A DNA stretch of 32,470 nucleotides from Lachnospiraceae bacterium (GTDB lineage Bacteria > Bacillota > Clostridia > Lachnospirales > Lachnospiraceae), in contig JAHAYJ010000078.1 in the NCBI GenBank assembly GCA_018384375.1, forward strand, positions 1-32,470, given 5' to 3'. The notes beneath the pieces were generated by a model. It ran no database searches. It saw nothing but the letters and a program-made list of their open reading frames with translations, and was not told the origin of the DNA. Made by a program: the position numbers and the translations under genes. This document shows, piece after piece, positions 26,403-28,796 of this stretch. The first letter of the stretch is position 1, and each line of letters begins with the position of its first letter.

Positions 26403-27095
26403 CTATTCCTGCGGATGAAGGAGTTTATATTTCATCTCCGCAATTGCCCAATCCTCGAAAGTATCAATGTCCTGCACCTCGGTGTCATTTAAGACCATGG
26501 GCTTCATACGGACGGTATCGGTCGTTCCCTCCCGGTAAAATGCCTCTGTGCGGCAGGCATAAAATTGTCCCACATCATGATAAAAGGGCTCTAAATCCTG
26601 GGAGCGGCTGTTTGCATACTCCGGCCATTTGCGTTTCAGCTCTCCGTCTTCGATCACAACAGCGCGCTGCACCGGATAGGAAAAGGCAACCACCGGCATG
26701 ACAGAATCAGTTTCTTTCAGCAAAGCCATTGCTTCCTTTAACCTTTCGGGAGTAATAAAAGGGGCTGTAGGGTAAATACAGCAAAAGGTGTCAAATTGCT
26801 GTCCACGATTCTTATAGTTGTCAAGAACCTCCCGGATCACGTCGTCAGTGGAAGCGTAATCGTTGGCTGTCTCGGCGCTCCTCATGAAGGGAACCTGTGC
26901 CCCTGCCTTTATGGCAAGCTGCGCAATCTCCTCATCATCCGTGGATACCATCACCTCATCAAAAAGTCCGCTGCGAAGAGCGGCATCAATAGAATACAGG
27001 AGGATGGGCTTTCCACAAAACGCTTTCTTATTCTTTCCGGGAATCCGTTTACTGCCGCCCCGGGCAGTGATGATTGCAAGGGAATGTTTTTTCAT
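26403..27095 (-). CDS. pseF: CMP-pseudaminic acid cytidylyltransferase (PseF)
   Basis: PseF activates the nonulosonic acid with CTP to give the CMP-sugar donor. The 230-residue product is a CMP-NeuNAc synthetase family member: AIITARGGSKRIPGKNKK at 7-24 binds CTP. DEVMVSTDDEEIAQLA, IYPTAPFITPERLKEAM, GQFYACRTEAF and DTEVQDIDTFEDW follow the family order. The frame is open to an ATG at 27119, but the promoter at 27135-27163 would leave that start only a few leader bases and the family begins at MKKHSLAII, so 27095 is chosen. GGTG at 27103-27106 is a weak site, so the start is not certain. It is first in the operon with pseI and pseG. Confidence 0.9.
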   Translation of the reverse strand: MKKHSLAIITARGGSKRIPGKNKKAFCGKPILLYSIDAALRSGLFDEVMVSTDDEEIAQLAIKAGAQVPFMRSAETANDYASTDDVIREVLDNYKNRGQQFDTFCCIYPTAPFITPERLKEAMALLKETDSVMPVVAFSYPVQRAVVIEDGELKRKWPEYANSRSQDLEPFYHDVGQFYACRTEAFYREGTTDTVRMKPMVLNDTEVQDIDTFEDWAIAEMKYKLLHPQE

Positions 27096-27134
27096 GAGCT
27101 GCACCAGTCCTTTGTACATAATTTACTGCTCTTA

Positions 27135-27163
27135 ATTATACACGATATCCGGTAGTATTCCAA
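27135..27163 (-). promoter_or_regulatory. Sigma-A promoter for pseF-pseI-pseG
   Basis: On the minus strand TTGGAA (27163-27158) and a perfect TATAAT (27140-27135) are 17 bases apart. Transcription would start near 27128. The -35 box ends one base from the outer end of the long palindrome. Confidence 0.62.
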
Positions 27164-27638
27164 GTTGCAGTTTGCTTTATGAAAAGTGAGAGAATGTGTA
27201 AAGTTGCGATGGGTTCCCCTCGTGCCAGATAATAGATTTTGGAATTTTATGAACCCAGCTGGCACAAATACCTATTAACTGCCCTCGCGGTAAACTCGAA
27301 GTTTCCACCGGAATATCTGCGACGAGGCCTTAAAGCGCGATGAGAAAAATCGCATGGCCCATTTCAGAAAATGGGCAGCCGGATTTCTTTGTCCGAAGCG
27401 AAGCAAGTTTGAAATCCGGCTGCTGATCATATCTCTGAAATGAGCCACGCAGATTTTTCCTGAGCACTTTATCGACCCTCGAGCAGATATTCCGGTGGAA
27501 ACTTCTCAGACACCCGCTCGCGCAGTTGTATTATTGTGCCAGCTGTTTCTATAAAATTGTCCAAAATCTATTAATGCCCCAGCGAGAAATCCCATCGCAA
27601 TTCTACACAGTACTTCTTTTTATAAAGCAAACTGCAAC
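27164..27638. repeat. Long imperfect palindrome, about 475 bp, non-coding
   Basis: The two halves are inverted copies. Perfectly paired blocks are 27164-27180/27622-27638 (17 bp, the outer ends), 27204-27213/27591-27600 (10), 27230-27243/27560-27573 (14), 27256-27267/27534-27545 (12), 27298-27320/27483-27505 (23) and 27375-27387/27411-27423 (13). They are collinear around a 23-base centre at 27388-27410. The left arm also has local hairpins: 27222-27228/27258-27264, and 27357-27364/27369-27376 with loop CAGA. No plausible gene lies inside, and no target-site duplication is evident at the ends. It fills most of the gap between the divergent pseF and GT52-like genes. It may be a MITE-like or interspersed palindromic repeat, or a large structured RNA. 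Confidence 0.85.
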
Positions 27639-27662
27639 CTTGTGAACAATAGGATGAAAGGA

Positions 27663-27691
27663 TTGACAGATAATTCTCTATGAGCGAAAAT
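27663..27691 (+). promoter_or_regulatory. Candidate promoter for the GT52-like gene
   Basis: A perfect TTGACA at 27663-27668 is followed after 17 bases by GAAAAT at 27686-27691 (4 of 6 to the -10 consensus). It lies 25 bases outside the palindrome and points away from it. Confidence 0.42.
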
Positions 27692-27725: not shown

Positions 27726-28796
27726 TTGAAAAAGAGAGTTTATGTGTGTCACACATTCTATCATGTATATGTAGCCTGTCTGAAGGAGTGTTATCTTCCG
27801 ATATCCGAGCGGGGGAATGCGGATCTGGTGCTCAGCACGATGTCAAACGACTTTGGTGATCTCAAGGAGCGGGTTGTAGAATCAGAGCTTTTTGATGAAG
27901 TATTTTTGTTTGAGGAAAAGGAGGATGTACAGTTCCCGGAGCTTACCAAATACCATGTGGACAGGGGGAATCTGTTGATCAATATGCTTGCCCGCATCCG
28001 TTACACAAAGCTGCTCGGAAAGCTGCAGGAGCCCTATGTGCCGGTGGATTTCAGGAGCTATGAGGATGTGTATGTCTTCTGTGATTCAGATCCCATCGGC
28101 TATTATCTGAGTTATAAGAAAATACGTTATCATGCACTTGAGGATGGACTTGACTGTATCCGCTATTATGACACGGCGAGATACGATAACAAGGGACATT
28201 TTAGGCTGAAAGCCTTTCTGTCCTCTATCAATTTGATATTTATCCAAAACGGTTATGGAAAATATTGTATTGACATGGAGGTCAATGATATTTCCGTCTG
28301 CCCTTATCCCTGCCCGAAATATGTGGAGCTTCGAAGGGAGCTTCTGGTGGAGCATCTTTCACAGGATGACAAGGATCAGATTGTGAAGCTGTTCTTAAAA
28401 AATATTGATGAGCTGAAGGAAAGGTTTATAAGCGGGGAAAATCATGAGCATAAGGTTCTTATTTTGACGGAGCCGCTCTGCAGTCTGGAAGTGAGGGAAA
28501 AGATCTTCAGGGACGTAATATCGGAGCAGGGACAGAATGCCCAGGTGATCCTGAAGCCGCACCCCAGAGATGTGCTGGATTATGAAAAGCTGTTTCCGGA
28601 GTACATTGTGCTTTCAGGGAAATTCCCCATGGAGATCATGAACTTTATCCCGGAGCTGCAGGTGGATAAGGTGGTATCCATTTTGACGGTGCCGGATGGC
28701 ATTCACTTTGCCAAGGAAGTGGTCTTTCTTGGAGAGGACTATATGGATCGCTACGAGGCAAGAGAGCTTCACAGCCAGAACGAATATTTGGAATAA
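27726..28796 (+). CDS. GT52-like (sialyltransferase-type) glycosyltransferase
   Basis: The 356-residue product resembles bacterial GT52 and related sialyl-transferases. It starts KKRVYVCHTFYHVYVAC, has YVFCDSDPIGYYL in the middle, a VLILTEPL strand opening the second Rossmann half, and KPHPRD at 277-282, the His-Pro CMP-binding motif of this superfamily, then SGKFPMEIMNF. These features and the neighbouring CMP-nonulosonate genes suggest transfer of the CMP-activated sugar to a surface glycan; donor and acceptor are inferred. No membrane helix is visible. The start is TTG at 27726, with GGAGA at 27712-27716; a downstream start would remove the conserved first strand. It is transcribed away from pseF. 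Confidence 0.7.
   Translation: MKKRVYVCHTFYHVYVACLKECYLPISERGNADLVLSTMSNDFGDLKERVVESELFDEVFLFEEKEDVQFPELTKYHVDRGNLLINMLARIRYTKLLGKLQEPYVPVDFRSYEDVYVFCDSDPIGYYLSYKKIRYHALEDGLDCIRYYDTARYDNKGHFRLKAFLSSINLIFIQNGYGKYCIDMEVNDISVCPYPCPKYVELRRELLVEHLSQDDKDQIVKLFLKNIDELKERFISGENHEHKVLILTEPLCSLEVREKIFRDVISEQGQNAQVILKPHPRDVLDYEKLFPEYIVLSGKFPMEIMNFIPELQVDKVVSILTVPDGIHFAKEVVFLGEDYMDRYEARELHSQNEYLE

Follow-up and report, generated by a model that had tools for sequence, protein, structure and literature searches.

Integron attC sites recombine as folded single strands with variable stems; judged by their general description, from which any likeness is drawn here, they are smaller than the element of interest and come with defined boxes and an integrase. 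REP elements and REPINs with RAYT (TnpA-REP) are palindromic, intergenic and multi-copy, and they are described as recognised in the form of folded single-stranded DNA through loop and bulge determinants (PMC8266576) and as sequences of 20-40 bp with tags such as GTAG (PMC3733652). ERIC, Correia and similar repeats are intergenic and non-coding and vary in copy number by taxon, and inversion of Correia elements is reported (PMC10969869). Template switching between inverted repeats, described for short repeats in yeast genes (PMC8604942), is reported to homogenise the arms and to invert the spacer.

An element that resembles these systems in part was found in a stretch of 32,470 nucleotides of Lachnospiraceae DNA (hereafter the window, meaning the whole stretch that was analysed). 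By all appearances it is neither a gene nor an RNA but a fold-back DNA repeat, interspersed and non-coding, that has no name yet. With REP elements it shares a palindromic, intergenic and multi-copy nature, but it is about 475 bp long (long copies across the family measure ~400-500 bp), and no common tag was seen by eye at its copy-specific ends. It differs from ERIC and Correia repeats, by description only, in being longer and in having copy-specific ends, hypervariable helices that covary and a tip that recurs in distant bacteria. Arm homogenisation and spacer inversion recall the template-switched quasi-palindromes, but here they concern a dispersed family with conserved loops. The family is larger and stranger than REP or, going by published description, ERIC-type elements.

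The copy in the window is an imperfect palindrome of 475 bp, detected in self-comparison as one inverted self-match of 73% identity. Its parts and neighbours, in window coordinates, are the following.

27164..27638, no strand: entire palindromic element, a subfamily A copy, 475 bp
27164..27180, + strand: left outer end, 17 bp, of copy-specific sequence, perfect complement of the right end
27622..27638, + strand: right outer end, 17 bp
27243..27267, + strand: left member of the conserved block pair with internal loop GAACCC / GTTTCT (partner 27534-27558)
27534..27558, + strand: right member of that block pair
27298..27320, + strand: left strand of the hypervariable helix, 23 bp and perfect here; in other copies the sequence differs and the pairing is kept
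27483..27505, + strand: right strand of the hypervariable helix
27324..27479, + strand: apical part, 153 bits against covariance model R1
27390..27410, + strand: conserved tip TGTCCGAAGCGAAGCAAGTTT
26403..27119, - strand: left neighbour, cytidylyltransferase (PF02348), start codon 44 bp from the element
27726..28796, + strand: right neighbour, glycosyltransferase family 52 (PF07922), divergent from the left neighbour

Perfect arm-arm blocks measure 23 bp (27298-27320 / 27483-27505), 14 bp and 13 bp; the 17-bp outer ends, GTTGCAGTTTGCTTTAT / ATAAAGCAAACTGCAAC, pair perfectly within a 40-nt block that pairs at 78% overall, and another three blocks pair at 71-89%. The original prediction of an imperfect palindrome of about 475 bp with perfect 17-bp outer ends is thereby borne out; the six perfectly paired blocks that it listed hold in outline, not in exact number. 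It had also been right to place no gene inside the palindrome, as the ORF list contains no frame of at least 100 aa within the element, and the nearest ORF on the left stops at 27155, just outside. When window 27130-27660 was folded and compared with dinucleotide shuffles, z was -18.1 and -20.1 on the two strands, and none of 100 shuffles folded as well on either strand. A NeuB gene lies one gene away. Just right of the element, TTGACA and GAAAAT with 17-base spacing were noticed by eye at 27663-27691, so the promoter of the right gene may be intact.

A BLAST search of the element against its own genome (G000) returned 11 rows, two for the element itself, one per strand, and nine that fall at eight further places; across 98 genomes there were matches in 11, own included, all in one genus. 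From 19 copies we built a covariance model of the apical 156 nt; it located 22 distinct places in the own genome (28 rows, of which six were reverse-strand duplicates) and matched 12 of the 37 genomes of the genus, own included. One additional copy in the own genome, on contig C119, is devoid of the apical part. The own-genome copies fall into two subfamilies, A, which includes the window copy, and B. In the tree of copies grouping follows species group, a clustering that fits lineage-specific amplification. These many dispersed copies, in the own genome and its congeners, and their lineage-specific subfamilies bear out the predicted interspersed palindromic repeat, for which BLASTN had been proposed as the check. 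Palindromy is found at 74 of the 79 places compared (arm score >10), the other five appearing truncated, and a remnant of two inverted insertions, also proposed originally, does not explain this. Internal deletion derivatives are present, with junctions at short direct repeats (by eye). Contigs often stop at or near a copy (G000:C60, C74 and C51; G028:C59 and C28; G027:C8, C9 and C40; G015:C224), so draft assemblies may under-count the family. A short TAAAACCAAATGCC-like repeat (query 272-301) occurs at many places in both the own genome and a sister genome, G025. Among the records listed from a largely open-access literature, no title or abstract opening pointed to a published family of such palindromes; the tip string had no verbatim match in the literature searched, and the listed papers that contain variant strings are unrelated by title.

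Internally, the element alternates between conserved blocks, which contain unpaired internal loops, and helices that are copy-specific in sequence but remain complementary. The loops are GAACCC opposite GTTTCT and AAACTC opposite a TCAGACA-like stretch. Among 52 copies, eight subfamily B copies being omitted, the share of the commonest base was 0.83 in the apical internal loop, 0.83 in the tip, 0.76 in helix columns and 0.67 in a further outer loop. The tip is TGTYCGAAGCGNAGCAAGTTT, with variants such as GAGCGTTAGCGAG or GAGGTATACCGAG that alter an inner two-pair stem on both sides. DNA of the form d(GCGNAGC) makes very stable mini-hairpins. The outer inverted ends differ from copy to copy (by eye); some B copies end in a GGAACTGTTGCA-like stretch, and some outer ends are A-tract/T-tract hairpins resembling two-way terminators.

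The two arms covary strongly. In alignment A3, which holds 60 of the 79 copies used for arm pair counts, 93.2% of cells were paired as opposed to 71.2% in shuffles, 35 of 39 pairs had changed on both sides, and the covariation score was 0.576 versus 0.182 in shuffles; sliding the pair partners lowered the paired cells to at most 57.2% and the score to 0.188. Pair counts in the 79 copies, taken from an arm alignment without preference for wobble, gave 10316 Watson-Crick pairs, 271 G.T, 294 A.C and 895 other mismatches (G.T versus A.C, p 0.35). In the 39 best-paired columns G.T numbered 84 and A.C 64, a lean to G.T that is not significant (p 0.12), and a small control of four tRNAs gave seven G.T and no A.C. 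As G.T does not outnumber A.C, the coupling between the arms would seem to operate at the level of DNA, or of both strands together, and not on a one-strand RNA. An Rfam scan with E up to 10 returned two hits only, with E 6.1 and 6.9, far below gathering scores. We therefore reject a one-strand structured RNA family, there being no wobble excess and no credible Rfam match, and with it the very large structured RNA of the original prediction: the covariation check suggested for it did reveal strong covariation, but the RNA reading failed on the G.T count.

Positional counterparts in different species show directly that copies flip and that sequences turn over while the slots stay fixed. In 20 positional pairs with both flanks homologous, copies being oriented by the tip, 12 had the same direction and 8 were inverted, namely 5 of 10 pairs between G000 and G025 and 3 of 10 from other species combinations; two triplets share loci, so that some of the pairs depend on each other. 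Seven pairs with one homologous flank only were omitted, as was L143/L141 (G000/G025, same direction), in which L143 missed the profile cut-off, and the inverted pair L151/L166 is weaker, with one flank 1.1 kb further off; without it the count is 7 of 19. In five alignments, most clearly that of L113/L133, the flanks match up to the palindrome ends and the interior is reversed. The five inverted G000/G025 pairs comprise ten copies, in which exact matches between the arms extend to 23 bp at most, and in eight of them to no more than 18 bp, making misassembly an unlikely source of the inversions. We considered insertion into terminator loops as a source of the copy-specific ends and rejected it, as the inverted counterparts L148/L157 have matching flanks and different palindromic ends (by eye). 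In-place inversion, concerted evolution and a tip common to other phyla were absent from the options first proposed.

Changes were compared on two time scales. In nine pairs of close orthologues, paired positions showed 102 one-sided and 6 double changes; mostly one-sided changes imply that rewriting of the arms is slow relative to flipping. The 14 pairs of nearest paralogues had 103 one-sided and 35 double changes (p 2.4e-5 for the contrast with orthologues), a contrast inflated by the greater divergence of the paralogue pairs and by their more numerous double mismatched changes, 13 in paralogues versus 1 in orthologues. Paralogue pairs of <0.88 identity or with <40 unchanged pairs were omitted and poorly aligned stretches masked. 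All three close pairs that were checked had the positional counterpart as nearest copy, which speaks against fast turnover. In ten positional pairs from less related species, with flanks 67-82% identical, both palindromes persist and 84-92% of aligned pairs are Watson-Crick. Within the 60 copies of alignment A3, at least one member was nearer to a copy of its own genome than to its counterpart in all ten of these deeper pairs, and both members were in nine; in the deeper pairs, then, either copies at fixed slots evolve in concert or elements have arrived more than once at one slot. The notion that copies simply decay in place is weakened by the persistence of palindromes at the same slots over deep divergence, the contrast between paralogues and orthologues being partly one of divergence.

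Comparison of twelve sites between G000 and G025 suggested recent movement of the element but did not prove it, since only two (L122 and L126) looked cleanly empty in the sister genome, and clean empty sites could also be deletions. L122 lies right behind a terminator hairpin and has no target duplication, and L126 is a half element with GCCGG at both ends. L142 has an ordinary terminator in G000 and a half element in G025; L134 is nearly empty in G000; in G025 the L112 and L121 sites, perhaps L120 too, retain only remnants of a deletion; L115 and L128 have other DNA after one flank; and L125 and L138 are occupied in both genomes, L138 being split over contig ends. Clean examples of the empty sites anticipated for a mobile repeat are limited to these two, the remaining sites being deletion remnants, other DNA or occupied. 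The G000 counterpart of L138 is divided between two contigs, as L226 (C51) and L227 (C106), beside a reading frame resembling an IS66 accessory gene. On its left side the window element has a flank that matches G025 as far as window position 27113, and on its right side the match resumes at 27640; the G025 counterpart retains GTTGCAGTTTGCTTT beside 2.7 kb of other genes and is either a pre-insertion site or a deletion remnant. There, at L248 (G025:C80:48300-51600), ORFs of 492 and 387 aa, presumably an acyltransferase pair, lie between the genes that flank the window element. No consistent target duplication, transposase or autonomous copy was found.

The gene context was counted for copies scoring at least 60 with ORFs on both sides, using simple ORF calls and counting orthologues apart. 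These 39 long copies, in 6 of which an ORF of at least 90 codons overlaps the element by >30%, have convergent neighbours in 16 cases, tandem ones in 20 and divergent ones in 3, the window copy being among these three. At 13 of the 16 convergent sites both element ends lie within 27 bp of the stops, a figure that has no background rate beside it.

The tip also occurs outside the genus. When 84,980 species genomes were scanned for it, 62 stretches were returned: 26 titled Lachnospiraceae, 15 Bacillota (from two assemblies) and 21 others. The last comprise 8 contigs of one Clostridia MAG, 5 of a Desulfuromonadaceae MAG, 2 of a Clostridium MAG and single stretches from Desulfuromonas, Bacteroidales, Proteiniphilum, Flavobacterium, Clostridium celatum and Cellulosilyticum ruminicola. 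Tests covered 24 tips, 22 of them in the 21 other stretches plus L040 and L053, both from Lachnospiraceae; at 19 the flanking stems outscored every one of 60 local controls. In scattered bacteria outside the genus the 21-base tip is thus likewise found on hairpin stems, though unrelated ones. In the Clostridia MAG copies the stems vary and the pairs are kept (by eye). The 18-base tip was found in 3 of 398 genomes drawn evenly from the phylum, one being the own genome. A phage or plasmid origin was considered and rejected: the tip pattern had no matches in viral contigs, and a 36-nt tip query matched five plasmid and two phage records weakly (E 4-5). Away from annotated features, four Rhizobium plasmids (hits H1-H4) carry a near-tip sequence that differs from the tip at one of 21 bases. 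With a relaxed variant of the tip, two scans of viral contigs yielded 9 and 5 stretches; among these 14 the hairpin scores, taken without controls, were 9-21 in four and at most 5 in ten. Hairpins in the viral contigs L260, L261, L262 and L264 carry the tip variant TGTTTGAGCGNAGCGAGTTT, and GCGAAG-like internal loops are present in some of them; they perhaps represent a wider hairpin family.

The explanation that we favour, with a probability of roughly 55%, is a non-coding fold-back DNA repeat, interspersed in the genome, that passes through hairpin or cruciform stages in which its arms are rewritten and flipped. The arms would meet on single-stranded DNA or as a cruciform, where polymerase template switching, or repair of the folded stem, would copy one arm onto the other and flip the centre; hairpin breakage and repair from another copy would homogenise the copies within a genome. 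Arm-to-arm copying should erase the conserved unpaired loops, so that selection or protein binding must be added. A DNA-binding protein probably reads the conserved tip and loops on the folded strand and may have driven the lineage-specific amplification; against selection on loops as a general rule, the outer loop at 0.67 versus 0.76 in helices means that not every unpaired stretch is conserved. Between convergent genes the element probably also terminates transcription from both sides. More speculatively, and with the odds clearly against it as a whole, the family might represent a new class of self-maintaining DNA palindromes, giant elements of folded single strands with a protein-read tip that several phyla have in common, in which a hairpin stage rewrites the two arms jointly, flips the element and spreads it, so that covariation on DNA imitates that of a structured RNA.

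A competing explanation, which we consider doubtful, is that the element is the folded single-stranded substrate of a transposase or recombinase, like REP or attC and some ten times larger; selection would maintain its palindromy because the enzyme has to recognise it when it moves, and resident copies would be passive. The conserved tip, its inner two-pair stem changing on both sides, the conserved internal loops, the tips on unrelated stems in other bacteria and the excess of double changes in paralogues all agree with it, but that excess is inflated by divergence, the palindromes persist at fixed slots over deep divergence, and no enzyme was found. The Y1/HuH transposase domain PF01797, present in 21 of the 37 genus genomes, was detected in six of the 12 carrier genomes and undetected in the other six, drafts being liable to miss genes; this, with the size of the element and its want of a common tag, led us to reject RAYT/REP membership in particular.

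Wobble-free pairing could also arise from selected RNA of both strands, and a bidirectional structured RNA or giant two-way terminator in which wobble is not tolerated would account for the copies whose ends abut the stops of convergent genes, the A-tract/T-tract outer ends and the site at which one genome has a half element and its sister an ordinary terminator. It is nevertheless unlikely: most of the 39 copies lie between tandem or, as in the window, divergent genes, no Rfam match is credible, and termination needs neither 475 bp nor conserved unpaired loops. Very improbable is a classical MITE, that is, two long terminal inverted repeats of an insertion sequence that lost its gene. The dispersed non-coding copies, the inverted ends and the GGAACTGTTGCA-like ends of some B copies would suit it, but terminal repeats are not common to all copies (by eye) and the element is not a MITE in the strict sense, which was one of the options in the original prediction; moreover, the variable helices covary between copies, no parent element was seen among the loci read and there is no consistent target duplication. 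An artefact of metagenome assembly can scarcely be credited even though the genus genomes are drafts with several copies at contig ends, as elements occupy the same places in different assemblies and exact arm-arm matches of at most 23 bp in the copies checked are probably too short to misjoin at usual k-mer sizes. For the window element itself, other copies inside other contigs and flanks that match G025 rule out the contig-joint artefact against which the prediction was to be checked.

A tip common to distant bacteria offers concrete bait for the protein that probably reads it. The family also constitutes a set of natural replicates for the survival of long palindromes in bacterial chromosomes, the homogenisation of their arms and the concerted evolution of dispersed repeats. 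Covariation is the usual proof of conserved RNA structure, to which this family, covarying strongly with no wobble signature and flipping in place, would be a clean counter-example, and it suggests the comparison of G.T with A.C as a quick control for RNA discovery.
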